Source: an uncultured Opitutaceae bacterium
GTDB taxonomy: Bacteria > Verrucomicrobiota > Verrucomicrobiia > Opitutales > Opitutaceae
Direction of reading: 5' to 3'
NCBI GenBank assembly: GCA_903890485.1
Contig: CAITBM010000014.1
Span: forward strand, 1-49,736
Length of the DNA: 49,736 nt
A model generated the notes under the pieces. The model had not been told where the DNA came from, ran no database searches, and was given only the letters and a program-made list of their open reading frames with translations. Position numbers and translations under genes: made by a program. Positions 5,046 through 21,535 of this stretch are shown here, piece after piece. Positions within the stretch are counted from its first letter, which is position 1, and the number at the start of each line of letters is the position of its first letter.

Positions 5046-6830
5046 GTGCCGTCTGAGAATAGCGCATATGCCAATAGAATGCCCGCTTGGTTGGGAGTAC
5101 TCCTCGCCATTGGTGCAGGGCTGGTCGCGTTCGCGCAATTTAGGGGCTTCGATGTCATGGACGGCGCCCTTTATTTCACCCTCTACCAAGACCCGGTGGA
5201 CAACCCCGACACCCACACCCGGTTTCACCTCCTGGCCCGGCCGCTGTGGCTCCTATGCCAACAAGACATTGTCGCATTTCGTTTCGCAACATTGCTTGGC
5301 TTTGCCCTGGTGGCCTGGCTCTTCAGCCGCGTCCTAAGGAGAGAATTACTTCCAAGTTTCGCTCGATGGGTAATCGTTGTTCCAATTCTTGTCGCCACCT
5401 TCGCGGGCCTTTCCTGGGTTCCCCTCGCGCTCACCTACAACTCCTTGGCGGCCCTCTTCACATTGCTCGCGCTCTCGGTCCTCCTGACCAATGCCGGGTC
5501 CCGATCTGCCCAGTCAGGCTGGCGGCGGAGCTCTTTCGCTTGGACTTCAATGGCCGTGCTTTCAGTTGGGCTCTTTCTCGTTAAGCCGCCGTCCGCCCTA
5601 GCTGTGGCGGCCGCTGCCGCGGTCCTGGCTTCTGCGAACCCACGCTTTTCGTCCGGGACGCGCAAAGTAATTCTGGGATGCGGACTAGCTTGCGCCTTAG
5701 TTGTTAGCGCGGCCGTGCTGATTATACCCCGCCTGAGTGGGTACGACCCCAAGCGGCTCCACTATGTGGCCGGACTTGCGATCAGCCCGGCATGGATGGC
5801 TGCCAACTTGGCCCGGTATTGGACTGAGATCGGAGCAATGCTGCCTGCGTTGTGGGTGGACATTTTTTGGCCGATCGGTCCGGTGGCCCTAGCCCTCATC
5901 GCCCTGTCGCTCGGCGCAAAGAACCCTTCAGCACTTAAAGGCCGACTCGTCTCCTTTAGCCTAGCTCTCATCCTCATGTCCATTTTGGGTGCGACGGGTT
6001 TCCGGGGACTCTGGGACAGCAGCTTTTCCTCGGTTGTGGCCGGCAATGCCGCCCGGTTCTACCTTCTTGCGTGGAGCTCTCTGCTCCCGATTTGGCTCGT
6101 GAGCATCTGGACCTGCGCGGGGGCGGCCCGCCCCACCCTCCTTCGTTTGGCGTGGGTTGCCGTGCTCTTTCTCCTTCCCCTCATCAGTTCGCTCGGTAGC
6201 ACGAACGCGATGTACGTTTCCGCGCTGCATGAGACCGTGCTCTGGGTTGCGGGACTTCTTATTGTCGCGGACAACATAGGGGAACTGCTCTCAGTGCGCT
6301 GGTTTAGGACCGCCGTGGCGTGCCTTCTTGCGCTCGGTGCCGCAGGGCACCTTTTCTCGGGGCTCGTTCTTCGCCCTTACATGTACCAGCCGAGCCTCTG
6401 GAAGCAGACCGATGCCGTCGATATCGGATATCCGGCGACGAGGTTGAAGGTCGATCCCGCCCTCGCGGATTTCATCCGGTATGTCCGAAGCACCCTGGAG
6501 CGGGATGGGTTTAAGCCCGGGGACGACGTGTTCGGGTTCTTCAACCTTCCCGGGATCATTTTTGCGATTGGAGCCAAGGAACCCGGCGCACCCTGGTACT
6601 TCGGGACATGGTACAGCCACGACGATACCGACGGGGGGAAATTGAGGCGCGTGCCTCTTGAGCGACGCAGGCGGGCATGGATCCTCACCCAGGCGGACGT
6701 GACCGGGTTCCGGAAGCAGTTCCTCGAATCGGGCATCGATTTTCCGGACGGATACAGGAAGATAGGGTCGACGCGCAACCCGACCACTGGACTTGAAATC
6801 GGAATCTGGAAACCCATCGACCGGCACTAG
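5046..6830 (+). CDS. Polytopic membrane protein, possible GT-C-type glycosyltransferase
   Basis: A 594-residue protein with about 10-12 transmembrane segments and a soluble C-terminal part of roughly 150 residues. After TM1 comes FRGFDVMDGALYFTLYQDP, an acidic first-loop pattern seen in GT-C-type transferases. The start is taken as GTG at 5046; an ATG at 5079 (MPAWLGVL) directly before TM1 is a fair alternative, and neither has a clear ribosome binding site. Composition is clearly more GC-rich than the preceding gene, so the border of the lower-GC segment lies between them. The next gene follows closely. No catalytic assignment can be made from the sequence alone. Confidence 0.6.
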   Translation: MPSENSAYANRMPAWLGVLLAIGAGLVAFAQFRGFDVMDGALYFTLYQDPVDNPDTHTRFHLLARPLWLLCQQDIVAFRFATLLGFALVAWLFSRVLRRELLPSFARWVIVVPILVATFAGLSWVPLALTYNSLAALFTLLALSVLLTNAGSRSAQSGWRRSSFAWTSMAVLSVGLFLVKPPSALAVAAAAAVLASANPRFSSGTRKVILGCGLACALVVSAAVLIIPRLSGYDPKRLHYVAGLAISPAWMAANLARYWTEIGAMLPALWVDIFWPIGPVALALIALSLGAKNPSALKGRLVSFSLALILMSILGATGFRGLWDSSFSSVVAGNAARFYLLAWSSLLPIWLVSIWTCAGAARPTLLRLAWVAVLFLLPLISSLGSTNAMYVSALHETVLWVAGLLIVADNIGELLSVRWFRTAVACLLALGAAGHLFSGLVLRPYMYQPSLWKQTDAVDIGYPATRLKVDPALADFIRYVRSTLERDGFKPGDDVFGFFNLPGIIFAIGAKEPGAPWYFGTWYSHDDTDGGKLRRVPLERRRRAWILTQADVTGFRKQFLESGIDFPDGYRKIGSTRNPTTGLEIGIWKPIDRH

Positions 6831-6858
6831 CACCCTTCCCTCATGGAGGAGCGAGGCC

Positions 6859-8970
6859 TTGCGCTGGCTCCTCCTCTTGTGCGGCGCCCTATGCCTATCG
6901 GGCCCCTACTTTTCGCCCCGGCTGATCGGGACTGCCGATGCGCTCTGGTACCACCACCTCCTAGCCGATGCCGTGACCCAGTTTCGGGCGGGGGTGTTTC
7001 CGGTTTACGTGGGCCAGTCCGACTACTCCTTCAATGGCGCGGTCTATCCGCTTAGGGCCGCTCCTTACCACCAATACCTGGCTGGGTTCCTCGATCTCTT
7101 GAGCGGCAGGTCGCTCGGCTTCTTTGCCCTCCAGCATGCGACGATCGTGCTCAGCTTTGTTGCAGGGGCTTTCTCAGCGTATTTCTCCCTCCTCTGGATT
7201 TCTGGGGCGCGCCGTTGGACCGCTGCGTTCCTGGCGCTTCTCTACGTGACGAGCCCTGGGGTTGCCGGGCTTTTTTACGCCCAGGACCTCTACATGAGTG
7301 GGATGACCCTTCCCTGGGTACCGCTCGCTTTTGCCGCCTTGGTCCGGACCTTTGACGACCCTCGGGCACGTCCGGGCGTGATCCTTGCAGCGGCCCTTGC
7401 CACCCTCTGGTGGGCGCATTCGCCGATTGCCCTTTGGGTGACCCTCATCGCGGGGGTGAGCCAGGTTGTTCGTCTGGCTCGGGGCAAGGGGACAAAGGCC
7501 CGGGTCCCCGGCGCGGCCGCGGCGGCAGCCGTGTTCTGTGTCCTCGCAGCCTACCCTATCGTCTCGGTGTTCCTCCTCCGGAGCCCGGGCGAGACGATTG
7601 TGCCCTACGTGATGGACCGGGAACTCCTGCTAAAATGGGTGAGCGGCAGCTTCCCGTCCTCGATCGAGCCCCTCGATCCTGCGGGGCCCGGACTCAACCA
7701 TCTTCAGCTCGGCTACAGCCTCTGGCTCGTTTTTGCGGCGGCGATCGCGCTCGGGTTCACGCGGGTGCGGGTGCTCTCGGTCGCCCTCCTCCTTGCCGCG
7801 GCGGCCTTCCTCCTGATTCTCGTCTTCCCGGTGCCGTTCCTGACCCGCGTCCTCTGGATGCATTTCCCCGAGACCCTGGTCGGAATGACCCTCTATTGGC
7901 CCATGCAGCGCCTCTATATCGTTGTCGCGGCCGCCACCGTGGTGGGCTTTTACCGCCTCGTGTGCGACGACACCAGTTTTGGTCCCCGAATCCTGGCCTT
8001 CACGCAATCCGTCCTTGGAGTGGGTCTTCTCTGGAGTGGATACCAGGCCTTTATCCTGGCGGGGATCGCCGGCCAACAGGGGGGAACCGTGGCCGAATCC
8101 AGCCGTTACACCCTGACGGAGAACGTCGCCGTCCAACGCCACACCTACGGGCTCTTCGCGCGGCGGCCGGCGTACTTCTCCCACGGGGTCGTGGATCCGA
8201 GGATGGAGGCGCGCCTCCTTGACCTTGAGTCCGGTGGCGTCATCGCAACCGATTATGCGATCGCTCCGAACGGTGCCCCGATGGAGGAGCTCCGCGGCAC
8301 CGTGGATGTGAATCCCGGGATCCTGAACCTGGCCCCAGCCTTGGTGCTTGAACCCGGGCGGCGCTACCTCCTCACCTTTGCCTTCGCCCAGGAAGACACG
8401 ACAGGAGTTCTGCAGATGAACGGGGACCACTTCTTCCGGGAATACGGCCTGCCTGAATCAGGCGAGGAGAAGGCGTTCGGGTCAGGACCCAAGAACGAAA
8501 AATCGATCACCGTGTGGACGAGCCTCCCGTCCCCGGAAACCGTGAAGCTGCGCTTCATTCCGACCGGGGGAACGCGGACCCCGTCGGATTACCTCCGCTT
8601 TGCAAAGATCCGGCTTAGCCCGCTCGATCCGGCGACGCTCCCCATCCGGGTGACGTCCCTGATTCCGTTCCAGGCGGGGGTCAGGAGCCCCGGGCGGGCG
8701 CTTCTTGAGACGCCCCGGATGTTTGTCCCGGGCTACGAGGCCACCGTGAACGGGGCACGGGTACCGGTCCTCAAGTCGCCGGAGGGCTTGATCATGTTTT
8801 CCGTTCCGGCTGGAGAGAGTCGGGTTGAGCTTCGCTTCACGGGACCCGTGCTCCTTCGGGCAGCTTTTTGGGGCAGCGCGATCGGGTGGGTCGTCGCCCT
8901 TGTTCTCGGCTCGTTTGGAGCCTTCCGAGCCCTGCGAGGGGCATCCCCCAAAACCCCCGAGTTCGTTTGA
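6859..8970 (+). CDS. Large polytopic membrane protein with YfhO/PTPS-related architecture (short paralogue)
   Basis: About 703 residues. The membrane core has an acidic first loop (GTADALWYHHLLADAV, then GVFPVYVGQSDYSFNGAV), about ten more membrane segments, a periplasmic jelly-roll-like region (LEPGRRYLLTFAF), a short beta domain (PGYEATVNGARV, FSVPAGESRVELRF) and a final TM. It is paralogous to the proteins at 21511 and 34190 but lacks their C-terminal repeats. The closing beta domain resembles that of YfhO-type proteins, which are linked to glycosylation of surface polymers; the function here is inferred. I chose TTG 6859 because GGAGGA lies eight bases upstream and the overlap with the previous gene is removed. 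A TTG at 6793 is the other option. Confidence 0.65.
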   Translation: MRWLLLLCGALCLSGPYFSPRLIGTADALWYHHLLADAVTQFRAGVFPVYVGQSDYSFNGAVYPLRAAPYHQYLAGFLDLLSGRSLGFFALQHATIVLSFVAGAFSAYFSLLWISGARRWTAAFLALLYVTSPGVAGLFYAQDLYMSGMTLPWVPLAFAALVRTFDDPRARPGVILAAALATLWWAHSPIALWVTLIAGVSQVVRLARGKGTKARVPGAAAAAAVFCVLAAYPIVSVFLLRSPGETIVPYVMDRELLLKWVSGSFPSSIEPLDPAGPGLNHLQLGYSLWLVFAAAIALGFTRVRVLSVALLLAAAAFLLILVFPVPFLTRVLWMHFPETLVGMTLYWPMQRLYIVVAAATVVGFYRLVCDDTSFGPRILAFTQSVLGVGLLWSGYQAFILAGIAGQQGGTVAESSRYTLTENVAVQRHTYGLFARRPAYFSHGVVDPRMEARLLDLESGGVIATDYAIAPNGAPMEELRGTVDVNPGILNLAPALVLEPGRRYLLTFAFAQEDTTGVLQMNGDHFFREYGLPESGEEKAFGSGPKNEKSITVWTSLPSPETVKLRFIPTGGTRTPSDYLRFAKIRLSPLDPATLPIRVTSLIPFQAGVRSPGRALLETPRMFVPGYEATVNGARVPVLKSPEGLIMFSVPAGESRVELRFTGPVLLRAAFWGSAIGWVVALVLGSFGAFRALRGASPKTPEFV

Positions 8971-9010: not shown

Positions 9011-9829
9011 ATGAGTGTCCCTGGACAACCCACCCCCGTGACAGGGCTCGCCCGCAAGCGGGACCTTTGGTGGCAGTTTACCGTCCGGGCGGTCGAGGCC
9101 CGGTACAAGGGAAGCTACCTGGGAATCCTCTGGGCGGTGTTGAACCCGATGCTCTTGCTCAGCATCTACTTTGTGGTCTTCGGGGTCATCTTCGGGGGCC
9201 ATTTCCGGGACCCGAGCGTCGAGACCCTGAAGGATTTCGCGATGGCGATGTTCCTCGGGCTAATCCTCTTCCAACTCCTGGCCGACACGCTGGGTGCCTC
9301 GCCGCTCCTCATAATCGGCAACTCGAACCTCGTGAAGAAGGTGGTGTTCCCCCTGGAGATCCTGCCGCTCTCCCAGGTCGGCGGCCTCTGGTTTAACCTG
9401 GCGATCGGACTCGTCCTCGCCCTGGGCAGTTCCGCGGTGCTAACCTCCGGTCCCACGCTTCTGGGCCTCGCGTGGCTGCCGGTCATCCTACTTCCGCTTC
9501 TCATGCTCTCCGCGGGCCTTTCCTGGCTCCTCTCGGCCCTCGGCGTCTTCTTCCGGGACCTCGCCCAGGCCATGCCCTTCATCGCCCAGGTGATCATGTA
9601 CTCGAGCGCCGTCTTCTATCCCGTTTCCCGGATCCCCGCCGGCGTGTGGGCCATCCTCAAGTGGAACCCCTTTCTCCAGACAGTGGTTCTCTCCCGGGAG
9701 GTGATCCTCTGGGACATGCCCGTCAACGCGAACCGGCTCCTCTACACCTACCTGGCCGGCCTGGCCTCCATGGCGATCGGCCGATGGGTGTTCATGAAGT
9801 TAAGGCCCGCCTTTGCGGACGTGCTCTAG
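9011..9829 (+). CDS. wzm: ABC-2 polysaccharide exporter, permease subunit
   Basis: A 272-residue inner-membrane protein with six hydrophobic segments and the family's signature N-terminus: DLWWQFTVRAVEARYKGSYL followed by GILWAVLNPMLLL. A second conserved part, PFIAQVIMYSSAVFYPVS, precedes the last TM pair. Wzm-type permeases form the membrane channel that moves undecaprenyl-linked O-polysaccharide, teichoic acid or S-layer glycan across the inner membrane. The start ATG 9011 has AAGGG eight bases upstream. The wzt gene follows after 15 bases, giving the standard pair. This argues that the main polymer is completed in the cytoplasm before export rather than by a Wzy polymerase. Confidence 0.93.
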   Translation: MSVPGQPTPVTGLARKRDLWWQFTVRAVEARYKGSYLGILWAVLNPMLLLSIYFVVFGVIFGGHFRDPSVETLKDFAMAMFLGLILFQLLADTLGASPLLIIGNSNLVKKVVFPLEILPLSQVGGLWFNLAIGLVLALGSSAVLTSGPTLLGLAWLPVILLPLLMLSAGLSWLLSALGVFFRDLAQAMPFIAQVIMYSSAVFYPVSRIPAGVWAILKWNPFLQTVVLSREVILWDMPVNANRLLYTYLAGLASMAIGRWVFMKLRPAFADVL

Positions 9830-9844
9830 GCGAACACTCCCCCA

Positions 9845-11188
9845 ATGTCCCAGGATCTCCTCATCGAGGCAAAGAACCTCACCAAGGCCTACCGGATCTG
9901 GAACCGGCCTTCCTCGCGCCTGACCGTGCCGTTCATCGAGGCGGCCTCCGGGATCTTCCCCAAGGGCTCGGCTCCCCGCGGACTCTTGGCCCGCAGCGCC
10001 GGCTCCAAGTACCGCGATTTCTACGCGCTTAAGGACCTGAGCTTCTCGATCAAGCGGGGCGAGGCCACCGGGATCATCGGCCGGAACGGCTCGGGGAAAA
10101 GCACCCTTCTCCAGTTGATTGCCGGGACGCTCACCCCGACCTCGGGCTCCGTCAGCGTGAGCGGCAGGGTCTCCGCCCTCCTGGAGCTCGGAAGCGGGTT
10201 CAACCCGGAGTTCACCGGGCGCGAGAACGTGTTCCTAAACGGGGCCATCTACGGCTTCACCCGGGGCGAGATGGCCGCCCGGATGGAGGAGATCACCGCC
10301 TTTGCCGACATCGGGGACTTCATCGACCAGCCGGTTAAGACGTATTCCTCGGGAATGATGATGCGGCTCGCATTCGCAGTAGCGGTTAACGTCCAGCCGG
10401 ATGTCCTCATCATCGACGAGGCCCTTGCCGTCGGAGATGTCTTCTTTTCCCAGAAATGCTTCCAGAGGATCCGCGAGATCGTCCACCGCGGGGCCACGCT
10501 CATTTTCGTGTCCCATGACATGGGCGCGGTCCAGTCGCTCTGCGACCGGGCGCTTCTCCTGAGCCAAGGCGCCATGATCTTCGACGGGGCCCCCGAGGAC
10601 TGCGTGAGCCGGTACTTCAACCTGCACAAGCCCGTCCGCGACACGGGTCAGGCGGTCGCCGGCGTCCATCCTGCGGTGAGTCCCGATTTGCGCCGCTCGC
10701 TTGAGGATTTGAATGTCATTGAAGCCGCGAAGTCGCGGCACGGGAGCCGGGACCTGGAGATCGCCGCCGCCGTGGTCGTTGACGGCCACGGGGCCGCGAC
10801 CTGGGATTTCGAGATGATGCACCGCGCCTCGGTACGCGTGCTTTTCCGGGCAAACGCGGACATCCAGAGGCCCTCCGCGGGGCTCCAGGTCCACGACCGC
10901 ACGGGTAACCTGGTCTTCGCGGCCGGGACGCCGCAGCTGCGATTCCCCCTGCCGAAGCTGTCCAAGGGCCAGGAGATCGTCCTCGAGTTCCGGATCGCCC
11001 TGAACCTCCAGCCCGGAGCCTACACGCTTTCCCTGGACGCAGCCGAATTCGACGAAGACAACCCGAATGTCGGTGTCTTCTACGACAGGGTCGGAGGACT
11101 CGGGCCGCTCTCGGTGGCCTTTAACGGTGGAGGCACCCTGCCCTTCTACGGCACGGCTCAGCTTCCGATGGAGATCAGCTACCTCTAG
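9845..11188 (+). CDS. wzt: ABC polysaccharide exporter ATPase with C-terminal substrate-recognition domain
   Basis: A 447-residue protein. The nucleotide-binding domain (about 1-265) has Walker A GRNGSGKST at 79-87, the signature-like YSSGMMMRL near 172 and Walker B VLIIDEALAVGD near 195, followed by the H-loop region FVSHDMG. Residues about 290-447 form a beta-rich Wzt C-terminal domain. In E. coli O8/O9a this domain binds the modified non-reducing end of the finished chain and thereby licenses export. The extended C-terminus here implies that the exported glycan carries a recognised end group. It is followed after four bases by a methyltransferase that could add such a group. No strong ribosome binding site is seen, so coupling to wzm is likely. 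Confidence 0.93.
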   Translation: MSQDLLIEAKNLTKAYRIWNRPSSRLTVPFIEAASGIFPKGSAPRGLLARSAGSKYRDFYALKDLSFSIKRGEATGIIGRNGSGKSTLLQLIAGTLTPTSGSVSVSGRVSALLELGSGFNPEFTGRENVFLNGAIYGFTRGEMAARMEEITAFADIGDFIDQPVKTYSSGMMMRLAFAVAVNVQPDVLIIDEALAVGDVFFSQKCFQRIREIVHRGATLIFVSHDMGAVQSLCDRALLLSQGAMIFDGAPEDCVSRYFNLHKPVRDTGQAVAGVHPAVSPDLRRSLEDLNVIEAAKSRHGSRDLEIAAAVVVDGHGAATWDFEMMHRASVRVLFRANADIQRPSAGLQVHDRTGNLVFAAGTPQLRFPLPKLSKGQEIVLEFRIALNLQPGAYTLSLDAAEFDEDNPNVGVFYDRVGGLGPLSVAFNGGGTLPFYGTAQLPMEISYL

Positions 11189-11192
11189 CACC

Positions 11193-12113
11193 ATGGGAGG
11201 AACCCCTGATCGAGCCTGCTGGTGCGGCCATCCCGGCCTCGAGCCTTACTCAGCCGAATACCGGGTGTGCCGGGCCTGTGGCACCCTGGTCAGCACCGCC
11301 CCCCAGCGGGCGGGGCTTTACGACCAAAGCTACTGGAAGGAGCGCCAGACAGTGCACCACGGGCTCCCCGACATCCGCGCCCGTGCCCGGCTCGACCTGC
11401 CGGAGCGCTGCACCCACTGGCTGGGCAGGCTCCTCGCGCTACGGCTTCCCCCTGCCCGGGTTCTTGATGTCGGATGCGCCCACGGAGGGTATGTGGCGCT
11501 CCTCAACTGGGCCGGCTTCCAGGCCGAGGGAACCGAGATGAGTCCGGAGGTGGCCGCATTTGCCGAGCAGGTGTTTGGCGTGAAGGTCCACGTGGGACCT
11601 GTGGAGGCGCTCCCTCTCGCCTCGGGGAGCTTCGACGTCATTGTCCTCAATGATGTGATCGAGCACCTGCCTGATCCCCTGGCGACCCTCGGCCACTGCG
11701 CCAGTCTGCTTTCACCGGAAGGCTTCTTCGTGATCCAAACCCCCGAGTACAAGGAGCACCTGTCGCACGCTGACCTCCAGGCCTCGGGGGACCTTTTCCT
11801 GAAGCACATGGACCACAACAACGAGGAGCACCTGTACCTGTTTAGCCGCCGGTCGGCCGGCCTCCTCTTTGACCGGATCGGCTTTGGGTGTCTCGACTTT
11901 TCAAACCCCGTGTATTCCTACGATATGGCCTTTACCGCAAGCCGCCGGCCAATCAGCCCACTGGCCCCTGAGGAAGTCGTTCGCGCCCTCTCGGGGACGC
12001 CCTCGGGACGTTTGGTCCAAGCTCTTCTAGACAAGGCATTTGAGTCCGCGGACAGGTGGTGGGCAATCCAGAGGCTTGAAGCCCAGGTCAAGGCCCCCGT
12101 GCCACGATCCTAA
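11193..12113 (+). CDS. SAM-dependent methyltransferase with N-terminal zinc-ribbon-like cysteines
   Basis: A 306-residue protein. The N-terminus has a Cys pair pattern (CWCGHPG, then VCRACGTL), a likely zinc site seen in many methyltransferases of O-antigen loci. The SAM motif I is VLDVGCAHGGYVALL near residues 88-103, followed by FDVIVLNDVIEHLPDP. I placed the start at ATG 11193, four bases after the wzt stop; the open frame extends further upstream but would overlap wzt by over 120 bases. A terminal methyl group is a known chain-end signal for Wzt-type exporters, so this enzyme is a candidate terminator. Its acceptor sugar cannot be read from the sequence. Confidence 0.85.
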   Translation: MGGTPDRACWCGHPGLEPYSAEYRVCRACGTLVSTAPQRAGLYDQSYWKERQTVHHGLPDIRARARLDLPERCTHWLGRLLALRLPPARVLDVGCAHGGYVALLNWAGFQAEGTEMSPEVAAFAEQVFGVKVHVGPVEALPLASGSFDVIVLNDVIEHLPDPLATLGHCASLLSPEGFFVIQTPEYKEHLSHADLQASGDLFLKHMDHNNEEHLYLFSRRSAGLLFDRIGFGCLDFSNPVYSYDMAFTASRRPISPLAPEEVVRALSGTPSGRLVQALLDKAFESADRWWAIQRLEAQVKAPVPRS

Positions 12114-12162: not shown

Positions 12163-15141
12163 GTGCCCGAAAAGCCCAAGACCCTGGTATACCTGAGACC
12201 CGACACGATCGGAGACTTGATCCTGTTCACTCCGGCTCTGCGCCTGTTCCTAGCGGAATGGCCTGAGGCTCGGCATGTAATTGTGGTTAGGGAGGGTTAC
12301 GAAAGCCTGGCCCCCCTGTTTCCCAAGGGGGTGGAGTGGAAGGTCGCCCGGATCAATCCTTTCAAACAGCGCCCCTCCGAATGCCGGGAAGCCCTGTCGA
12401 CCCTTGTCAAGGACTTGGCCGCCCTCGCCCCCGACCTGATCCTGGCCCCCACACTCAACAGGACCTGGCTTGAAATCGGGGTGGCGTCCCAATTTGGGTC
12501 CGCAAAGAGCATCGTTCTCGGAAGCGCCGAGGTGGACCCAATCTTTGCGGCGTCGCTCAGGCTCGACCTGGGCATAGACCCGACGCGGGCATTCGCTGAG
12601 ACGGTTAAGGCCGTCAGGGACGAGACCGATGTCTCCAGCCAGCACCGATTCGCGGAACACGTGATCGGAAGGGTCCTGCCCAAAACCCTGCCTTTGGTCG
12701 AGACAACGCCCGAAGCAGTCCTGGCGGCAAAGGCCGTCTTGGCTGGGTACGGACTGTCCGGCGGCGCCTTTGCGGCGGTCTTCGCCGGTGGGCTCGCCAA
12801 CGTCCAAGTCAAGTCATGGCCCGCTGAGCGCTTTGCCGAACTCATCGCCCATATCGAGGGAAATCAGAAAATCCCGGTGTTGCTCATGGCGCACGAATCC
12901 GAGGCGCAGGCCCTGGAAGCGATCGCCAAGAGGGTCGCAGGCCATGGCGGTAGCCGTCCAAAGGTTTGGCTCGGCAAGGACGGCGGGCTGCCCCTGTTGG
13001 CCGCGCTCCTCGGGCAGGCTAAATTCTACGTGGGGCATGACACGGGAGCCATGCATCTGGCGGCCGCAATGGGCAGGCCCGTGGTCGGGATCTTTGGCGG
13101 CGGCCACTGGCCGCGTTTTCGACTCTCGGCCCGACAGGCCGTCTCCGTTGTCCAGCCCCTTCCCTGCTTCGGCTGCAATTGGGACTGCCACTTTGGGGAC
13201 GGACCCTGCGTGAAGACGATCCCGGCCGCGGACGTTGTCGCCGGGATCGACCGCCTGCTGAAGGCGGGAAGCGATCCGGTGAACCTGGTCCTCACGGTCA
13301 AGGCCCTGGGGCCCGAGGCGTTGGCCCTTGTCGAGTCTTCCACGCCCGGCCTTCTCGCCCTCAAGCGCGACCGGATCGACCGCCAGCACAAGATTGAGGA
13401 GCTCAAGTCGGAAACCGACACGAAGGATGTCGAGATCACGGACCTAAAGCGGGCGGCCGACGAGCGTAAGAAGGAGATGGAGTCCATCAAGGCCGAGCTC
13501 GAGGCCGAGTGCGCCCTAAAGGACACCGAGATTGAGGAGTTGAAGTCCGAAACGAATTCCAAGGACACGGAGATCGGGGAGCTGAAGCGGGCCGCCGACG
13601 AGCGCAAGAAGGAGATGGAGTCCATCAAGGCCGAGCTCGAGGCCGAGTGCGCCCTAAAGGACACCGAGATCGGGGAACTCAAGGGCGAGGCCAACACCAA
13701 GGATGCCGAGATCGCGGACCTCAAGAAGACCTGCAACGACCGCGAGGAGATCGTGGTAAGGCTCGACGCCGGACTTAAGGCCCACATCGAGGCAGCCGGC
13801 GCCCGGGAGCAGCAGATCGCGGCCCTCGGAGCCGAGATAAAGGAGCTCCGGGCCAAACTCGACCTCCTGAATTCGTTGCCGCCTGACGCCTCCACCTGGG
13901 CGGAGCTCATCAAGCACAAGGATGTCCACATCGCCAATATCGAGGCCATCGTGCGCAACCGTGATGAGCAGATCACCTCCCTGCGCCAGGAGATCACCAA
14001 TTATGCCACCGGCTACGGCAGCGTGGAGCAGGCCAAGCATTACGGCCGCCTCCTCGCCGAGAAGGAGGCCGTGATCCAGGAGCTCAACCGGGCGTGCATC
14101 GAGCGCGGCGCCGTGATCGCCGAGCTCGCCGCCTCCACGACTGGGGTCACCGCCGGCTTGAGGAAGCTCTGGATCGCGGCTGCCTCGTGGACCAGGGAAA
14201 AGGTCACGCGCCCGCTTGGGGCCTGGTCTTTCGAGCGCTTCGTCGAGGGCTATTGGATGCAGATCGGGGTCCTTAAGCAGTACGAGCCAAAAGCGATTGC
14301 CTGGGACCCCAAGCTCCGGAGCGCTCCCAAGGCGGACCCGGCGGCCCTTCCCCAGATCGGGATCGTGACGCCGAGCTTCGGCCAGGCTGCGTTCCTTGAA
14401 AGCACGATGCTGAGCATCCTAAACCAGGGGTACCCGAGGCTCCTCTACGCCGTCCAGGACGGGGGATCCAGGGACTCGAGCCCCGCGATCATAGCCCGCT
14501 ACGGAGCCCAATTGGTCCATGGGGAGTCCGAGCCCGACAACGGGCAGGCCGACGCCGTCCGGAAGGGATTCGCTCACATTGAGCCCAAGCTCGGGCCCGC
14601 CGACGTGATGGCCTACCTCAACTCGGACGATCTTCTGGCCCCCAGGTCGCTTGCCTTTGTGGCGGGATACTTTGCGACCCACCCGGACGTGGATGTCATC
14701 TACGGACACCGAATCATCATCGACGAGGAGGACCGCGAGGTCGGCCGCTGGATCATGCCGCCCCATGAGGAGGAATCGATCGAATGGATCGACTATGTCC
14801 CCCAGGAAACCCTGTTCTGGCGCAAACGCGCATGGGACATGGCCGGGGGCATCGACCCGAGCTTCCAGTTCGCACTCGACTGGGACCTCTTGGCGCGGTT
14901 CCAGAAGGCCGGTTGCGCGATCGTCCGCATCCCCTATTTCCTGGGATGCTTCCGGATCCATTCCCAGCAGAAGACGCACCACGCCATCCACACCACCGGG
15001 GCGGAAGAGATGGCGAGGATCCGCCTGCGTTTCCACGGCACCGACAAGGACAATGCCGCCATGATCGAGCGCCATGCCCGACGGATCCGAATCCGGGGTA
15101 CCGTGACCGCGCGCCTGCACGCCGTCGGGCTACGCTGGTAG
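12163..15141 (+). CDS. GT9 - coiled coil - GT2 bifunctional glycosyltransferase
   Basis: A 992-residue three-part protein. Residues 1 to about 350 are a GT9 (heptosyltransferase-like) GT-B domain, with YLRPDTIGDLILFTPALR at the N-terminus and YVGHDTGAMHLAAAMGRPVV near 290. Residues about 406-655 are a long charged coiled coil rich in Lys, Glu and Leu, including two near-identical 46-residue units. Residues about 730-992 are a GT2 domain, with GIVTPSFGQAAFLESTMLSI, the YLNSDD metal motif and a LDWDLLARFQKAG acceptor region. It starts with GTG at 12163. The GT9 domain fits use of the heptose made by the 39-43 kb genes. The coiled coil may set the distance between active sites or the chain length. 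No membrane segment is seen. Confidence 0.88.
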   Translation: MPEKPKTLVYLRPDTIGDLILFTPALRLFLAEWPEARHVIVVREGYESLAPLFPKGVEWKVARINPFKQRPSECREALSTLVKDLAALAPDLILAPTLNRTWLEIGVASQFGSAKSIVLGSAEVDPIFAASLRLDLGIDPTRAFAETVKAVRDETDVSSQHRFAEHVIGRVLPKTLPLVETTPEAVLAAKAVLAGYGLSGGAFAAVFAGGLANVQVKSWPAERFAELIAHIEGNQKIPVLLMAHESEAQALEAIAKRVAGHGGSRPKVWLGKDGGLPLLAALLGQAKFYVGHDTGAMHLAAAMGRPVVGIFGGGHWPRFRLSARQAVSVVQPLPCFGCNWDCHFGDGPCVKTIPAADVVAGIDRLLKAGSDPVNLVLTVKALGPEALALVESSTPGLLALKRDRIDRQHKIEELKSETDTKDVEITDLKRAADERKKEMESIKAELEAECALKDTEIEELKSETNSKDTEIGELKRAADERKKEMESIKAELEAECALKDTEIGELKGEANTKDAEIADLKKTCNDREEIVVRLDAGLKAHIEAAGAREQQIAALGAEIKELRAKLDLLNSLPPDASTWAELIKHKDVHIANIEAIVRNRDEQITSLRQEITNYATGYGSVEQAKHYGRLLAEKEAVIQELNRACIERGAVIAELAASTTGVTAGLRKLWIAAASWTREKVTRPLGAWSFERFVEGYWMQIGVLKQYEPKAIAWDPKLRSAPKADPAALPQIGIVTPSFGQAAFLESTMLSILNQGYPRLLYAVQDGGSRDSSPAIIARYGAQLVHGESEPDNGQADAVRKGFAHIEPKLGPADVMAYLNSDDLLAPRSLAFVAGYFATHPDVDVIYGHRIIIDEEDREVGRWIMPPHEEESIEWIDYVPQETLFWRKRAWDMAGGIDPSFQFALDWDLLARFQKAGCAIVRIPYFLGCFRIHSQQKTHHAIHTTGAEEMARIRLRFHGTDKDNAAMIERHARRIRIRGTVTARLHAVGLRW
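13444..13719 (+). repeat. Tandem 138-bp repeat (2 copies) in the coiled coil
   Basis: Unit 1 (13444-13581) and unit 2 (13582-13719) start with the same LKRAADERKKEMESIK coding text. A run of 65 bases is identical between 13468-13532 and 13606-13670, and divergence increases only toward the end of each unit. The unit is 46 codons, so gain or loss keeps the frame. Partial, older echoes of the KDxEIxxLK element occur before unit 1 and after unit 2. Such near-identity points to a recent duplication or to ongoing recombination. Confidence 0.9.
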
Positions 15142-15189: not shown

Positions 15190-18100
15190 ATGATACCGCT
15201 TCTCCTCGTAGCCGGGCTCTTTGTTTACCTTTCGATCCTGGGCCAGGCTGTCGTCAGCCTTTTCAAGCCCCGGATCGGGATACTCTGGAGCTGGTTTGTG
15301 GCGCCGGCGGTCGGCCTATCGGTGCTCCTGGTGGTGCTCACCCGCCTGAACGTGGCGGGGATTCCCGTCCGCGTCGCAGGGCCTTGGGCAACGCTAGGCC
15401 TGCTCGCGGCCTCCCTGGCCATCCTGGCCTGGCGCCGCCCGGTGCTGCCCCTCCGGAAAATGGCGCCCTTCCTCGCGATCGCCGCGGGAACTTTGGTCTA
15501 TGTCGGATGGCCGTCGCTCCGTTTTGGCTTCAACTGGATCTCCTACGGCAACGACGACATGGCGAACTACTGCCTGGCAGCGGAGCGCTTCCTGGAGCAC
15601 GGCTACTACGACGTCCCCCTCCAGACGGACCTGGAGGGCCGCGACTACGCGCAGCACTACTGGTTCATGCATGCGCTCCAGCAGATCCGGCCGGGCTCGG
15701 AGCTCACGATCTCCTGGATCTCGTCCCTCACGGGGAAGCGCGCCCACGAGGTCTTCATGCCGGCGATCCTGATGCTGAGCCTGATGCAGCTCTTCGCCCT
15801 CGGCTCGGTCGCTATCTGGCGCGGGAGGAACCGGAAGGTGGCGATCGTCGCCTTTTTCCTCCTGGCGACCTCTCCCCTCTTTAGCCTGGGGACGCTTTAC
15901 CAGTTGATCGCCCAGGTCGGAGGGCTTGCCCTCCTGGTCGTCATTGCCTCCATCCTCTTCATGGTGAGGAAGATGACGCTGCGCACGATGGCCGTGGCTG
16001 GCATCCTCACGGCCTGCCTCGCGATCTTCTACCCGGAGGTTTCGCCGTTTGTCGCCATGGGAATCATGCTCGTGGCCGCCCGCCTCCGGTACACCGACAG
16101 CAAGAAGTTTGGCCCCTACACGACCTTCATCCTCGGCGTCGCCGTCCTCACCTTCCTCCTCATCGCGAGCAGCACCTACCAGTTCATCAACACGCTGGTC
16201 ATGCAATCGGTGGGCTCGGCTGGTCTCGGCGCCATGGCCGAGATCAACGACCAGAGCGGGGGCCTGGTTCTCTTCCCTTGGACGCTCGTCCCCTCGTTCA
16301 TCCCGATGCTCTTCGGGCTCCATCCCTTCGGCAAGGTGGGCGTCGATCCCCTGATCTCCGTCCAGATCGTGGTGGGCGTGGGCTTCCTCGCGTTCTTTGC
16401 CTGGCGGACCTGGAAGAACCTGAAGGACGGCTCGCCCGCGGGCTACCTCGGCACGATCATGATCGTGCTCGGCGTCTACCTTTTCCAGAAGGGCCAGGAC
16501 TTCGGCCTCTTCAAGCTCGCGATGTGGGCGCAGCCCGTGATCACGCTTTGCCTCGCCCAGGGAATCACGCCCTTTCTCTTTTCCGCGAGCCCGGTGACCC
16601 GCAAACGCGCCAGGATCGGAGTGGGCCTCTTTTTTGCCTGCACCGCGGTCTCGCAGGTCTACTATGCCTACTCGTCGCTCGGGACCTACGGTGGCGGCCT
16701 CACGGAGGTCGTGAAGGGTTCGGAGCTCGGCGTCGGCTTCGTGCCCCCGAAGAACGTTAAATATGACGGTATCGAGAGCGACATCTCGAACGTTGTGAGC
16801 GCGAAGATGCTCTCCATGTACACGCAGGGGATCGACACGCGCTTCCTCTCCAGGAGCTACATGGACAACATCGCGAACATCGCGGTCCTCAAGTTCCTGA
16901 GGACCCCGGACCCGGACCTGGGTCCGCAGGCAAGGATCGTCGAGAAGCTCTCCCTCCTCCGATTCATGCTTCCGCCGGAGCTCATGAAGGACGACATCCC
17001 CGATTACAAGGTGGTGACGATCCACAAGGAGGCCGACAGCGTCGACTATGCCAACAACTGGACGGAGACGAGCTCCCGGCACCTGAACTACAAGGACCGG
17101 CTCTTCGTCTCGATCCGCTCCGACCTGGACCATTTCAACAAGCTGAACGACGGCACGGGCTGGACCGTGCAGAACATGTACCAGTACAAGCTGGAGAGCC
17201 AGGTGAAGGACCACCTGGTGTTCGTCCATTCTGAGCTGAGCCCCCACTACTATTCCTCGGCCCGCTTCAAGGCCGCCTTCTTCCAGCGCGAGTCCGAACC
17301 GATCTCGAACGGAAAGAGCTACTTCCACGGGACAGGTCGCTTCACGGTCTTCCACATTATCAACCCCTCGCCGAACCTCCGGGTGATCGTCGACTTCTCG
17401 CGGACATCGCTCGGCGCGGGCCGGACCAAGCTTCCGACCAAGGCGCTCGTCGTGGGCGACGACGACTACAGGCTGAACTTCGTGGGCTCGGGCTCCGCCA
17501 GGGTCGTGTCCTCGGTCATGAAGCCCGAGTACTACGAGGGCCAGGCCTACTTCATGGTCGACTTCGGCGACTACGCCCGGGTGATCGAGAAGATCAAGAC
17601 CGGGCTCATGCGCTGGTACGGCGTAAAGTTCGCCCTCGACGATAGGCGGCTCGTGGGTTTCACCCGCGACATCTCGGTTATCACGGACGACGAGTACAGG
17701 GCGCTCCCCCGCCCGACGAAGATTAGCGTCTTCCCTGACGACCTCCTCAACTACAAGGGGCTGGAGTACTCCGGGCTCTACGAGGATGGATGGATCGGCC
17801 GCGACGCCTACGTGAAGCTCGGAGCCTCCCACACGGGCCAGGTCCTGACCTTCAAGGGCTACATCCCCGACATCCCCCGCTTCAAGAAGGAGGGGATTGA
17901 TGCCACGATCTCGATCAACGACAGGCCGACTGAGGTCGTGAACTTGAAGGCGGGAAAGTTCATCCTCACGCGCCTTGTGAAGGACGCCGCCGATATCACG
18001 TCCATCGCCGTGCACTTCTCCGACGCCCAGGTCTACGACACGGACAAGGACAAGCGCGAGGTCTCCGCCTTCGTGGACGAGATCTCGATCAACGCGGTCC

Positions 18101-18840
18101 CCGACTTTGCGAGCTTCAGGAGCGTCGCCAACGACGCCGGCGAGAAGTTCACGGTCACGGGGATCGACAACGACGGCTGGATCCAGAAATCGGCCGAGTT
18201 CAGGGCGCCCGCCTTCGACGGCTTCAAGGTCCTAAAGCTCGACCTGGAGATGCCGGGCTGGGCCCCGATCGCCTCGAACGGGCTCAAGGTGTCCGTGGAC
18301 GGCCACGTCGTGAAGGACGAGGCAGTCCCGCGGCAGACCTTTGCCAGCGTCTACATACCGCTCCCAGCGGGCGCCCAGCGCTTGGTCCACCTGGACGCCT
18401 CCAATGTCTTCCCCCTACCGGGCGACGGCCGCCAGCGGTCCTTCGACGTGAAGAACATCTCCTTTGAGAACCTGACCCAGACCGACCTCTTCGCACGGGG
18501 ATGGCACAAATCGGGCTATCTGTTCGAGATCTCCGGAGCCGACACGGACGGGTGGGTCGACCGCACCCTTACGCTCCGCTTCCCCGCAACAAGCCGGTTC
18601 CGGGAGGCAATCGTCGAGGTGGTCCGATTCCCGTCCCGCAAGGACTATCCCCTAGCGGTTGCGGTCAATGGAGCAAAGACAAGCAAGGTGTTGGGGCTGG
18701 AGGCGACCGAGCGGCTCCGGGTGCCGCTTTCCGCGGTCTCCGACACCTCGGCAACCCTCTTCGCCGGGGAGAGCTTCCCGTTGGGATCCCCCGACACCCG
18801 CTCCCGCTCTTACCGTGTGGTGAACATCGACTTCGACTGA
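15190..18840 (+). CDS. 1216-residue polytopic membrane protein with three extracytoplasmic DGW repeats
   Basis: The N-terminal half (about 1-510) has 11-13 hydrophobic segments. Its acidic first-loop region (ISYGNDDMANYCLAAERFL, then DYAQHYWFMHAL) resembles GT-C membrane transferases. The C-terminal 700 residues are soluble and probably periplasmic. Their last 350 residues are three consecutive repeats of about 105 residues, each opening with an acidic DGW motif (YEDGWIGRD, DNDGWIQKS, DTDGWVDRT); the second and third end in a similar strand (RSFDVKNISFEN, RSYRVVNIDFD). These look like beta-sandwich domains. No family name can be given. The ATG at 15190 has GAAAG upstream. A GtrB-like transferase follows after 26 bases, which would fit a donor-acceptor enzyme pair. 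Confidence 0.7.
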   Translation: MIPLLLVAGLFVYLSILGQAVVSLFKPRIGILWSWFVAPAVGLSVLLVVLTRLNVAGIPVRVAGPWATLGLLAASLAILAWRRPVLPLRKMAPFLAIAAGTLVYVGWPSLRFGFNWISYGNDDMANYCLAAERFLEHGYYDVPLQTDLEGRDYAQHYWFMHALQQIRPGSELTISWISSLTGKRAHEVFMPAILMLSLMQLFALGSVAIWRGRNRKVAIVAFFLLATSPLFSLGTLYQLIAQVGGLALLVVIASILFMVRKMTLRTMAVAGILTACLAIFYPEVSPFVAMGIMLVAARLRYTDSKKFGPYTTFILGVAVLTFLLIASSTYQFINTLVMQSVGSAGLGAMAEINDQSGGLVLFPWTLVPSFIPMLFGLHPFGKVGVDPLISVQIVVGVGFLAFFAWRTWKNLKDGSPAGYLGTIMIVLGVYLFQKGQDFGLFKLAMWAQPVITLCLAQGITPFLFSASPVTRKRARIGVGLFFACTAVSQVYYAYSSLGTYGGGLTEVVKGSELGVGFVPPKNVKYDGIESDISNVVSAKMLSMYTQGIDTRFLSRSYMDNIANIAVLKFLRTPDPDLGPQARIVEKLSLLRFMLPPELMKDDIPDYKVVTIHKEADSVDYANNWTETSSRHLNYKDRLFVSIRSDLDHFNKLNDGTGWTVQNMYQYKLESQVKDHLVFVHSELSPHYYSSARFKAAFFQRESEPISNGKSYFHGTGRFTVFHIINPSPNLRVIVDFSRTSLGAGRTKLPTKALVVGDDDYRLNFVGSGSARVVSSVMKPEYYEGQAYFMVDFGDYARVIEKIKTGLMRWYGVKFALDDRRLVGFTRDISVITDDEYRALPRPTKISVFPDDLLNYKGLEYSGLYEDGWIGRDAYVKLGASHTGQVLTFKGYIPDIPRFKKEGIDATISINDRPTEVVNLKAGKFILTRLVKDAADITSIAVHFSDAQVYDTDKDKREVSAFVDEISINAVPDFASFRSVANDAGEKFTVTGIDNDGWIQKSAEFRAPAFDGFKVLKLDLEMPGWAPIASNGLKVSVDGHVVKDEAVPRQTFASVYIPLPAGAQRLVHLDASNVFPLPGDGRQRSFDVKNISFENLTQTDLFARGWHKSGYLFEISGADTDGWVDRTLTLRFPATSRFREAIVEVVRFPSRKDYPLAVAVNGAKTSKVLGLEATERLRVPLSAVSDTSATLFAGESFPLGSPDTRSRSYRVVNIDFD

Positions 18841-18866
18841 TTTCCCCTTAGACGTAACCTAATCCC

Positions 18867-19802
18867 ATGCTCCTAAGCCTCGTCGTCCCCGTTTACCGGG
18901 AGGAGAAAAACATTCCCGAGTTCATCCGAAGGATCCGGCCCATCCTCGCGTCGATCACCGAGGACTATGAGCTCATATTCTCGATGGATCCGTCGCCGGA
19001 CCGGACCGAGGACGTGATCCTGGAGGAGCGGGCAAAGGATGCGCGGATCAAGCTGCTCAAGTTTTCGCGCCGCTTTGGGCAGCCGATGGCGAGTCTGGCC
19101 GGCATGGAATACTCCCGGGGCGACGCCGTGATCGTCATGGATGTCGACATGCAGGACCCCCCCGAGCTGGTGCACCAGATGGTGGCAAAATGGCGCGAGG
19201 GATTCGATGTCGTCCTTCCCCAGAGGACCCAGCGGACGGGGGAGCCCTGGATCAAGAAGCTCGTGGCGGGAACCGGCTACAAGGTGATCAACAAGATTGC
19301 CGACGTGCGGATCCCCCCGAATACCGGAGATTTCCGCCTGATGTCACGCCGTGTGGTGAACGAGGTGGTCCGCCTTAAGGAAAGCCACGGATTCCTGCGG
19401 GGCATGGTGGCCGTTGTGGGCTTCAAGCAGTTCCTCCTGCCCTTTGAGAGGCCGGCCCGATTCTCGGGCGAGACCAACTACAACCGGTTCTTCGGATCGC
19501 TCAGAATCGGCTTCAACGGGATCTTCTGCTTTTCCACCTACGCCCTCACCCTCAGCACCATGTTTGGGTTCATCATCGCGGGATTCTCGTTCCTCTTGAT
19601 GGCTATCTATCTCTTCTACAAGCTGATGGGATGGCCGATCCTCTGGGGAAACCCGACGCTTGTTATCCTGATTTCATTCCTGGGCGGGATCCAATTGATC
19701 AGTGTCGGGATCCTGGGCGAGTACATCGGCAGGATTTACGAGGAGGTCCGCGCCCGCCCGCGGTTCATCGTCGACCGGGCCGAAGGATTTAAAGACAAAT
19801 AG
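18867..19802 (+). CDS. GtrB-like polyprenyl-phosphate glycosyltransferase (GT2, two C-terminal TMs)
   Basis: A 311-residue protein with a GT2 domain (LLSLVVPVYREEKNI at the N-terminus, the metal motif VMDVDMQDPPEL near residue 91, SRRFGQPMASLAG before it), then two hydrophobic helices after residue 225 and the end motif GILGEYIGRIYEEVRARP. This is the architecture of DPM1/GtrB-type enzymes that load a sugar onto undecaprenyl phosphate on the cytoplasmic face. An oddity is FSMDPSPDRT in place of the usual V-D/N-D-G-S-x-D-x-T nucleotide-binding stretch, so one of the usual acidic residues is Met. It lies between the 1216-residue membrane protein and a methyltransferase. Confidence 0.88.
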   Translation: MLLSLVVPVYREEKNIPEFIRRIRPILASITEDYELIFSMDPSPDRTEDVILEERAKDARIKLLKFSRRFGQPMASLAGMEYSRGDAVIVMDVDMQDPPELVHQMVAKWREGFDVVLPQRTQRTGEPWIKKLVAGTGYKVINKIADVRIPPNTGDFRLMSRRVVNEVVRLKESHGFLRGMVAVVGFKQFLLPFERPARFSGETNYNRFFGSLRIGFNGIFCFSTYALTLSTMFGFIIAGFSFLLMAIYLFYKLMGWPILWGNPTLVILISFLGGIQLISVGILGEYIGRIYEEVRARPRFIVDRAEGFKDK

Positions 19803-19807
19803 ACCTT

Positions 19808-20539
19808 ATGCAAACTGCCAAGTGGCCCAAAGTCCTCCCTCCGATGACCTCGGAGCAGAAGCGGATCAGCGACGAGTTCATGAAGCTCTGGCACGAGCAG
19901 CTTCCCAACCGCTATGGGGTCGTTGAGAAGTTCAACCATTCCTTTCCCGTCAAGCATTCGCACCCGGGGTTCAGGACAACGGTGGAAATCGGGGCCGGCT
20001 TGGGCGAGCACCTGCACTACGAGAAACTCACGCCTGAGCAAGAGGCCAACTACTACGCGGTCGAGCTTCGCGAGAACATGGCCGCCGAAATCCGGAAGAG
20101 CTTTCCCAGGGTGAAGGCCATCACCGGCGACTGCCAGGCCCGGCTCTCCTTCGAGGACGGGCAGGTTGACCGCTACATCGCCGTTCACGTGATGGAGCAC
20201 CTCCCCGACCTGCCCTCCTGCATCAGGGAGGCCTACCGGCTCCTCAACAGGCAGACCGGCCAGCTCCTGGTCGTGATCCCCTGCGAAGGCAGCCCGGCGT
20301 ATTCGTTGGCGAGGAAGATCTCGGCGGAGCGGGTCTACAACCGGCATTTCAAAGGGGGCTACACGTGGCTCATTTCCAGGGAGCACATCAACCGTCCCCA
20401 CGAGATCCTGGCGGAGCTTGACCCGTACTTCACGGTCGAGAAAAAGGTGCTCTTCCCCCTGCCCTTCCTCCCTTTCATCTTCAACAACCTCTGCATCGGG
20501 CTCTCGCTTAAGCCGCGTTCGACACCCCTCGCCCGTTAG
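19808..20539 (+). CDS. Class I SAM-dependent methyltransferase
   Basis: A 243-residue soluble protein. SAM-binding motif I is TVEIGAGLGEHLHYE near residues 58-72, and the later acidic and VHVMEHLPDLPSC parts match methyltransferase motif order. The C-terminus (VLFPLPFLPFIFNN) is hydrophobic and could touch the membrane. It starts with ATG five bases after the GtrB-like gene and ends 21 bases before the epimerase gene, so it shares their operon. The substrate could be a sugar nucleotide, a lipid-linked sugar or the chain end; nothing in the sequence decides this. Confidence 0.82.
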   Translation: MQTAKWPKVLPPMTSEQKRISDEFMKLWHEQLPNRYGVVEKFNHSFPVKHSHPGFRTTVEIGAGLGEHLHYEKLTPEQEANYYAVELRENMAAEIRKSFPRVKAITGDCQARLSFEDGQVDRYIAVHVMEHLPDLPSCIREAYRLLNRQTGQLLVVIPCEGSPAYSLARKISAERVYNRHFKGGYTWLISREHINRPHEILAELDPYFTVEKKVLFPLPFLPFIFNNLCIGLSLKPRSTPLAR

Positions 20540-20560
20540 CCCGGCCCCGGTCATTCCTTA

Positions 20561-21535
20561 ATGAAAAAAGCCTTCGTCACCGGCTGCGCCGGGTTCATCG
20601 GTTCAAATCTGGTCGACCGCCTGCTGGCGGACGGCGTCTCCGTCGTCGGATGGGACAACCTGTCGACGGGCCAAGAGCGCTTCATGGCGAACGCCCGGGC
20701 CTCGAAGGACTTCACCTTTGTCCAAGGGGACAATCTTGACCTCAGCTCACTTGCCAAGGCGATGGAAGGCTCGGACTTTGTGTTTCACCTGGCAGCCAAC
20801 GCAGACGTGCGCTTCGGGACGGAGCACACCCGACGCGACCTCGAGCAAAACACGATCGCGACCTACAATGTCCTCGAGGCCATGCGGCTCAATGGAATCA
20901 AGCGGATCGCCTTCTCATCGACGGGGTCGACCTACGGCGAGGCCGAGGTGATCCCGACTCCGGAAACAGCGCCCTTCCCGGTCCAGACCTCCCTCTACGG
21001 CGCCTCGAAGGTTGCCGGCGAGGGGCTGATCTCCTCCTTCTGCGAGGGCTTCGGGTTCGAGGGCTACATCTTCCGCTTCGTCTCGATCCTCGGGGAGCGC
21101 TACACCCACGGGCACGTGTTCGATTTTTACAAGCAGCTCCTCGAGCACCCAGGCTCGCTCCGGATACTGGGCGACGGCAAGCAGAGGAAGAGCTACCTCT
21201 ACGTGCAGGACTGCGTCGACGCGATCCTCCACGTGGTGAGGAACAAGACAGCCCTGGAAGCCAAGCACCGGACGCAAATCTACAACCTGGGCACCGCGGA
21301 GTATGTTCAGGTGAACGACAGCGTGGGGTTCATCTGCAGGGCCCTCGGGCTCTCCCCTAAGCTCGAGTACACGGGCGGCAACAAGGGATGGATCGGCGAC
21401 AACCCGTTCATATTCCTGGACACCGCTAAGATCCGCGCCACGGGCTGGGCCCCGAAGCTCACGATCGAGCAGGGCATCGTACGGACCCTGAGGTGGCTGG
21501 AGTCCAATTCATGGGTCTACGACGCTCGTCATTAG
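20561..21535 (+). CDS. NAD-dependent sugar epimerase/dehydratase (extended SDR, GalE-like)
   Basis: A 324-residue extended short-chain dehydrogenase. It shows the N-terminal Rossmann motif TGCAGFIGSNLVDRL, the DNLSTGQ strand end, the catalytic Ser/Tyr-xxx-Lys set (AFSSTGSTYGE, YGASKVAGE) and the later RFVSILGERYTHGH substrate region. Family members act on nucleotide sugars, mostly as UDP-hexose 4-epimerases or 4,6-dehydratases. The TGxxGFIGS pattern with a variant Cys and the short length favour an epimerase. The start has a run of A residues but no clear ribosome site. The gene overlaps the start of the next, very large membrane protein by 25 bases, indicating coupled translation. Confidence 0.88.
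   Translation: MKKAFVTGCAGFIGSNLVDRLLADGVSVVGWDNLSTGQERFMANARASKDFTFVQGDNLDLSSLAKAMEGSDFVFHLAANADVRFGTEHTRRDLEQNTIATYNVLEAMRLNGIKRIAFSSTGSTYGEAEVIPTPETAPFPVQTSLYGASKVAGEGLISSFCEGFGFEGYIFRFVSILGERYTHGHVFDFYKQLLEHPGSLRILGDGKQRKSYLYVQDCVDAILHVVRNKTALEAKHRTQIYNLGTAEYVQVNDSVGFICRALGLSPKLEYTGGNKGWIGDNPFIFLDTAKIRATGWAPKLTIEQGIVRTLRWLESNSWVYDARH

Follow-up and report, generated by a model that had tools for sequence, protein, structure and literature searches.

O-antigen length is set by coiled-coil rulers in a few enteric systems, and intragenic repeat recombination varies the size of coiled-coil surface proteins such as the streptococcal M protein. To our knowledge, the evolution of ruler length has been little studied. 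Here, we describe a tandem repeat in the coiled coil of a 992-residue glycosyltransferase (GT) fusion protein from an uncultured Opitutaceae bacterium. The protein is encoded by an open reading frame (ORF) at positions 12163–15141 on the forward strand of a 49,736-nucleotide stretch (assembly GCA_903890485.1, contig CAITBM010000014.1), hereafter the window, and consists of a GT9 domain, a long coiled coil and a GT2 domain. The reading favored here, to which we assign a probability of roughly 0.6, combines an old duplication of a coil module, repeated homogenization of one part of that module (B) between the copies, and a coil that changes in steps as a ruler of glycan length.

In the Klebsiella pneumoniae and Escherichia coli systems described in PMC11231755, the ruler is a coiled-coil protein that holds a terminator enzyme at its distal end, the polymerizing GT modules may be C-terminal, and the Wzt subunit of the exporter has a domain that recognizes the chain terminus. 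Insertions and truncations in the WbdD coil alter chain length, and four-residue stutters are a known and tolerated coiled-coil discontinuity, according to PMC5082667 (both statements) and PMC9369452 (stutters). At about 1 nm per heptad (PMC5082667), each 46-residue unit would add ∼6.6 nm to the rod. The window protein resembles the rulers WbdD (E. coli O9a/K. pneumoniae O3), WbbB (O12) and ORF6 (O7) in its N-terminal enzyme and long coil (PMC11231755, PMC5082667), and it has C-terminal GT sequence as do WbbB and ORF6-O7. An ABC exporter whose Wzt contains a carbohydrate-binding domain is also common to the ruler systems and the window (PF14524, 9845–11188). The N-terminal domains differ, being GT9 in the window protein but a Kdo transferase or a methyltransferase-kinase in the rulers. 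Tandem coil units with concerted evolution are present in the window protein but receive no mention in the ruler texts as far as these are available (PMC11231755, PMC5082667). Stutters and hendecads occur elsewhere, whereas the stutter of the window protein is duplicated together with each unit (PMC9369452, PMC5082667). By layout, family and fold, the window protein is a putative ruler or terminator.

A literature search, as judged from the listings of its matches, found nothing on intragenic tandem repeats in coiled-coil GTs or on this Opitutaceae protein. Searches linking WbdD, tandem repeats and length polymorphism, and on WrtF, also found nothing. In the M protein, in-frame repeat exchange changes coiled-coil length, as proposed here. 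The M protein is a surface antigen, whereas the window repeat is a linker inside an enzyme and its variation is seen between species.

Two modules of the repeat unit

An earlier note on this DNA had described a recent in-frame 138-bp duplication inside the coiled coil. The 65-base identity on which it was built is exact at an offset of 138 (13468–13532 and 13606–13670, forward strand). Tandem Repeats Finder (TRF) reports a single array at the repeat site (13391–13725; period 138, 2.4 copies, 81% matches, 0% indels, score 453), and the repeat search delimits copies at 13391–13528, 13529–13666 (87% to the first) and 13667–13804 (61%). In the frame of the ORF, the array comprises two 46-residue units (13387–13524 and 13525–13662) and a third, partial copy (13663–13722). 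Each unit is divided into an A module (codons 1–20; A1, 13387–13446 and A2, 13525–13584) and a B module (codons 21–46; B1, 13447–13524 and B2, 13585–13662), and the third copy contains the A module only. A1 and A2 are each similar to their positional counterparts in other species. B1 and B2 are homogenized with each other inside the genome, and B1 bears a stutter within or at its end.

The last 26 codons of the window units encode 26 of 26 equal amino acids, and 24 of the 26 codons are identical, compared to an expectation of 14.6 under random redrawing of synonymous codons with the gene's codon usage (0 of 20,000 draws as high). Protein-level sharing alone therefore does not explain the identity of the last 26 codons. 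No excess is observed in the first 20 codons, where 8 of the 13 same-residue codons are identical (7.3 expected).

The mosaic was compared in 8 of the 11 ORFs with two B modules, representing eight genomes with two full units; the other three (L030, L033 and L034) were omitted because one unit in each lacks seven residues, which disrupts the 46-residue frame. For the A module, the same position of another genome is among the nearest copies in 14 of 16 comparisons, and the sibling copy in one. For the B module, no copy is nearer than the sibling from its own genome in 14 of 16 comparisons. An exact permutation over all 40,320 pairings of copy 1 with copy 2 ranks the true pairing of B best of all, with a nucleotide identity of 0.942 within genomes and 0.832 across them (1/40,320). 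The B pairing is similarly extreme at synonymous codons (0.898 versus 0.773; 2/40,320), whereas A identity does not differ significantly (0.723 versus 0.704; 3631/40,320). Across genomes, B copies at the same position (0.833) are no more alike than those at different positions (0.832).

The B module is fairly conserved between species even at synonymous codons (0.773–0.779 over the eight genomes and 0.849 within the genus), and thus the permutation, rather than the codon-usage null, carries the case for homogenization. Protein constraint alone as the source of the B likeness is ruled out by the synonymous sites together with the pairing permutation. In the compared genes, concerted evolution is confined to the B module, where it extends to synonymous sites. 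Repeated exchange between the copies is evident in the DNA from codon identity and the pairing permutation.

Unit number, age and helix register

The comparison includes one genome per species. The fused GT9-coil-GT2 gene is found in 9 of the 13 genomes of the genus, including that of the window. Seven of the nine fused genes contain two B modules, one (genome G003) contains a single module and one (G010) contains none; copy number is not fixed among relatives, in line with the earlier note. The coil gene of G008 is cut at a contig end, and that of G001 contains unread bases. Family-wide, 30 near-complete fused ORFs divide into 11 with two occurrences of the B motif, 7 with one and 12 with none, as counted with our own pattern, which requires the residues EC. 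Each B module of the window (13447–13524 and 13585–13662) has one cysteine (in ECA), as do the B modules compared from other genera.

The proteins of the two-unit species of the genus are 67–80% identical to the window protein. Because seven species share the two-unit layout at this level of divergence, the duplication is not recent in the lineage of the window. All seven contain ETN in A2 and ETD in A1, and this common contrast argues for a single duplication within the genus rather than seven. The A modules, specific to position and common to the seven species, show that the duplication predates their divergence. Of the earlier description, the in-frame position within the coil holds and the recency does not; a recent duplication is rejected on the two units common to the seven species. 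A recent duplication operating as a strain-level length switch would account for the 65 identical in-frame bases and for a unit number that varies, as it does here between species. However, besides the shared two-unit layout, A1 resembles A2 within a genome no more closely than it resembles the A2 of other genomes, and a strain-level switch is very improbable.

If the 46 codons had instead been duplicated independently in each lineage, the B copies would likewise be alike within a genome, with no need for homogenization after a single duplication. One relative has a single unit, and the two-unit state of genes in other genera (L033–L035 and L038), in which A2 does not carry the ETN mark, may have a separate origin. 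Within the genus, however, A2 (the junction module) clusters with its counterparts in other genomes, and the ETN/ETD contrast is common to the seven species, making independent duplications improbable. The two trees differ on G003: a first tree places it beside G012 (support 59/68; untidy input with 685 of 1493 columns kept), and a second groups the seven two-unit species (support 54/75). The single unit of G003 may represent either a loss or the ancestral state.

The source assembly is a 144-contig draft, in which a repeat could be an assembly artefact. Many sites distinguish the two copies, and separately assembled genomes of other species repeat the two-unit arrangement with different letters. 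An artefact is therefore very unlikely, to the point of being negligible.

The 46-residue unit consists of heptads and one four-residue stutter (46 = 6 × 7 + 4). The earlier note had reasoned that each added unit shifts the heptad phase; the arithmetic is correct, but every unit carries its own stutter and so the coil pattern resumes after it. Registers were assigned by simple dynamic programming with a rough scoring table of our own, by which the repeat region scores 65.8, compared to 44.1 in 200 shuffles (standard deviation 4.4, maximum 54.0). One net three-position register skip, equivalent to a four-residue insertion, is observed per unit in the window protein, L027, L028, L031 and L035, and is located within or at the end of the B part. 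L027 and L035 contain extra register breaks elsewhere, and L030 has one skip per unit plus a cancelling pair. No register breaks are found in the coils of G010 and G007 (L037 and L016), which are built of 14-residue units.

Coil indels between species are mostly of 7 residues and in one case of 46, compared to mostly 1–2 residues elsewhere in the protein. Relative to the window protein, the coil gaps in the genus are 7 residues in G002, 7 and 7 in G005, and 46 in G003; G001 has a gap of 4 plus a one-residue gain, and G004, G008 and G012 have none. Gaps in or near the GT domains are limited to 1–2 residues within the genus, except for 43 in G001 at the unread bases. Among L033, L034 and L035, all gaps are in the coil (7 + 7 for L034–L033; 7 for L034–L035; 7, 2, 5 and 7 for L033–L035). 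L039 differs from L038 by 4 and 7 residues in the coil and 5 in GT9, and from L040 by no gaps. Coil length thus changes between species in steps, with differences of 7 and 46 residues, as the earlier note had anticipated for strains.

The tandem units of related proteins have comparable sizes. TRF arrays with scores of at least 100 are present in 26 of 39 related coil-bearing ORFs, with periods of 42, 63, 84, 105, 126, 138 and 147 bp. The only period that is not a multiple of 21 is 138 (10 ORFs), and all other units are multiples of seven residues. Arrays scoring below 100 (periods of 7–24 bp, and some of 42 bp or shorter) were left uncounted. In protein self-matches of 30 ORFs, the best offsets besides the named units are 39 residues in L030 and L071, 74 in L042 and, at just 10 of 28 matches, 44 in L012. 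The gap and unit sizes support the conclusion that coil-length steps between species keep the helix register.

Among related proteins, the Acidobacteria GT9-coil proteins L046 and L045 contain 49-residue tandem units with 95% and 82% matches, respectively, and L013 (G009) contains a 35-residue unit with 93% matches. By these match levels, recent expansion would be a more plausible reading for these arrays than for the window repeat, and some of them are likely younger.

The coil as a putative length ruler

The domain assignments of the fusion protein are based on Pfam matches above cut-off and on structural comparison. The GT9 domain has the heptosyltransferase fold and spans residues 1–369 (12163–13269; PF01075 match at residues 212–335, 68.3 bits versus a cut-off of 22). 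It aligns with structure 3tov_B over 330 residues with a Z-score of 31.8 and a root-mean-square deviation of 3.5. The GT2 domain spans residues 729–978 (14347–15096; PF00535 match at residues 734–870, 44.6 bits versus a cut-off of 23.3) and matches the structures of several GT-A enzymes with Z-scores of up to 23. An AlphaFold2 model, built with a 26-sequence alignment, places long helices between the two domains at residues 384–695 (13312–14247), namely residues 384–464, 472–569, 575–657 and 664–695. The model is a monomer and thus presents the helix and not the assembly. A sequence search of the Protein Data Bank (PDB) with the window protein matched six sequences: the GT9 structure 3tov, three sequences of the glycosyltransferase WrtF and two of chondroitin synthase. 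None of these matches bore the name WbdD or WbbB.

The N-terminal enzyme is exchanged in a few relatives. In 2 of 150 genomes of the family, an even draw from a larger group, a similar coil and GT2 domain (45–48% identical to the window protein) are fused to a 203-residue domain instead of GT9 (G080 and G102). In a third genome, G118, the contig end leaves the last 47 residues of the swapped domain. The corresponding ORFs are L071, L069 and L066, of which L066 is cut at the contig end. The swapped domain has no Pfam or NCBIfam family above cut-off and no PDB sequence match. Its model (mean pLDDT 80.9) retrieves SAM-dependent methyltransferase folds in Foldseek with moderate TM-scores of ∼0.4–0.6, and the domain is predicted to adopt a methyltransferase fold. 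Exchange of the N-terminal enzyme on a common coil and GT2 domain is what a terminator/ruler design would predict.

The coil gene also looks like part of an ABC-exported glycan pathway. Upstream on the same strand are genes for a Wzm-like ABC-2 permease (9011–9829; PF01061) and a Wzt-like ATPase with a Wzt_C carbohydrate-binding domain (9845–11188; PF00005 and PF14524). A wzt match is present in the available flank of 13 of 17 relatives (L026–L042). The upstream sequence is short in three relatives that have no match: L026 begins at the contig end, and 3.4 and 2.0 kb are available for L030 and L032, respectively.

In the proposed mechanism, a 46-residue coil module was duplicated in tandem before the seven two-unit species diverged. 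The stutter-bearing 26-codon B module has since been repeatedly homogenized between the copies in separate lineages, with A keeping its positional identity, most simply through gene conversion or unequal exchange, which we infer from the observed pattern. The same kind of exchange can add or remove units, and the coil length would move in register-keeping steps. The coil may hold a fixed distance between the distal N-terminal enzyme and a membrane-near GT2 domain, which would help to build the chain. The N-terminal enzyme, GT9 or in a few relatives the methyltransferase-fold domain, would modify or cap the chain end recognized by the Wzt with its carbohydrate-binding domain. By analogy to the known rulers, coil length would set glycan length. 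The order of N-terminal enzyme, coil and C-terminal GT2 domain, with a carbohydrate-binding Wzt, matches that of the known rulers and makes the length proposal reasonable, though unproven.

Alternatively, the coil may simply oligomerize the enzyme and separate the two GT domains, with repeat number drifting by recombination under selection for register alone and chain length independent of it. The indel and unit sizes reveal selection for register, need nothing more and are explained equally well by such a plain spacer. Seven of the nine fused genes in the genus retain two units, and GT9-coil proteins also exist in unfused form. In contrast, the adjoining Wzt of the carbohydrate-binding type and the swap between GT9 and a methyltransferase-fold domain point to a ruler/terminator layout, and we regard the plain spacer as rather unlikely.

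Several observations weigh against a stepwise ruler with repeated B homogenization. Homogenization is weak in L035 (17 of 26 codons, P 0.11), and the nearest B copies of G001 belong to G012. The linkers of the seven two-unit genes are near-equal in length (335–349 residues), which also fits a conserved spacer. Confidence in the model is low over much of the coil, where ten-residue means of pLDDT are 42–84 with the minimum at residues 461–480. A membrane-near amphipathic helix is weakly indicated: the conserved LRKLW helix has a high hydrophobic moment that does not stand out, with its best window ranking 44th of 979. L042, a one-B orthologue from Opitutaceae bacterium EW11 (presumably an isolate), has no wzt match across its full 6-kb upstream flank, and wzt is 4.5–5.4 kb distant in L036 and L037. 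The terminator role is assigned to GT9 by analogy, and the methyltransferase encoded at 11067–12113 could be the terminator instead. Finally, G006, G007 and G009 carry a GT9-coil homologue (31–38% identical) as a separate protein with no GT2 domain in the ORF, and fusion to GT2 is thus not required everywhere. These separate ORFs are L012 (G006), L016 (G007) and L013 (G009), and GT2-domain homologues are found elsewhere in the same genomes. G011 has a weak GT2 match only.

If the ruler reading is correct, block copying and whole-block length changes may allow bacteria to readjust a possible limit on the length of their sugar chains. Among related species, the enzyme is available with zero, one or two module copies, together with sister coils of 14-, 21-, 35- or 49-residue units and two N-terminal domains, and these proteins would form a ready-made test set for the effect of coil length on glycan length. 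Even if the coil is not a ruler, the repeat is a clean mosaic, with concerted evolution in one half and evolution by position in the other. More tentatively, and with some doubt on our part, the reading may extend to a family of capped coiled-coil GTs: rulers changed by intragenic recombination in whole register-keeping units (14, 21, 35, 46 and 49 residues), with gene conversion homogenizing one portion of the unit and glycan length evolving in quanta without loss of the enzyme.

Other genes of the window

Between wzt and the coil gene, a methyltransferase is encoded on the forward strand (PF13489). The ORF as listed overlaps wzt, and its true start is probably later. On the 3′ side, the coil gene is followed by genes for a large protein that matches no Pfam family, then a GT2 enzyme, another methyltransferase and an epimerase. 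Sixteen of the 17 relatives L026–L042 retain the protein encoded at 15190–18840 next to the coil gene. This protein and those encoded at 21493–25107 and 6793–8970 match no Pfam or NCBIfam family at an E-value of 0.001. The latter two have tblastn matches of 26–38% in the flanks of several relatives. The closest named relatives are Opitutaceae and Opitutia/Opitutae records (Verrucomicrobiota), nearly all of them draft metagenome assemblies.

A downstream segment of the window is nearly identical to contig C239 of G008, another species of the same genus. Positions 15597–22043 differ by 4 mismatches in ∼6.4 kb, and positions 22044–23249 are ∼97% identical. The left edge of the high-identity stretch falls within the gene at 15190–18840. 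The coil gene, which lies just before this stretch, is ∼77% identical to that of G008, and two other stretches of the window's genome are 74–82% identical in their main pieces. The near-identity over 15597–23249 may reflect either a recent interspecies transfer of downstream glycan genes or a chimeric or mis-binned contig.

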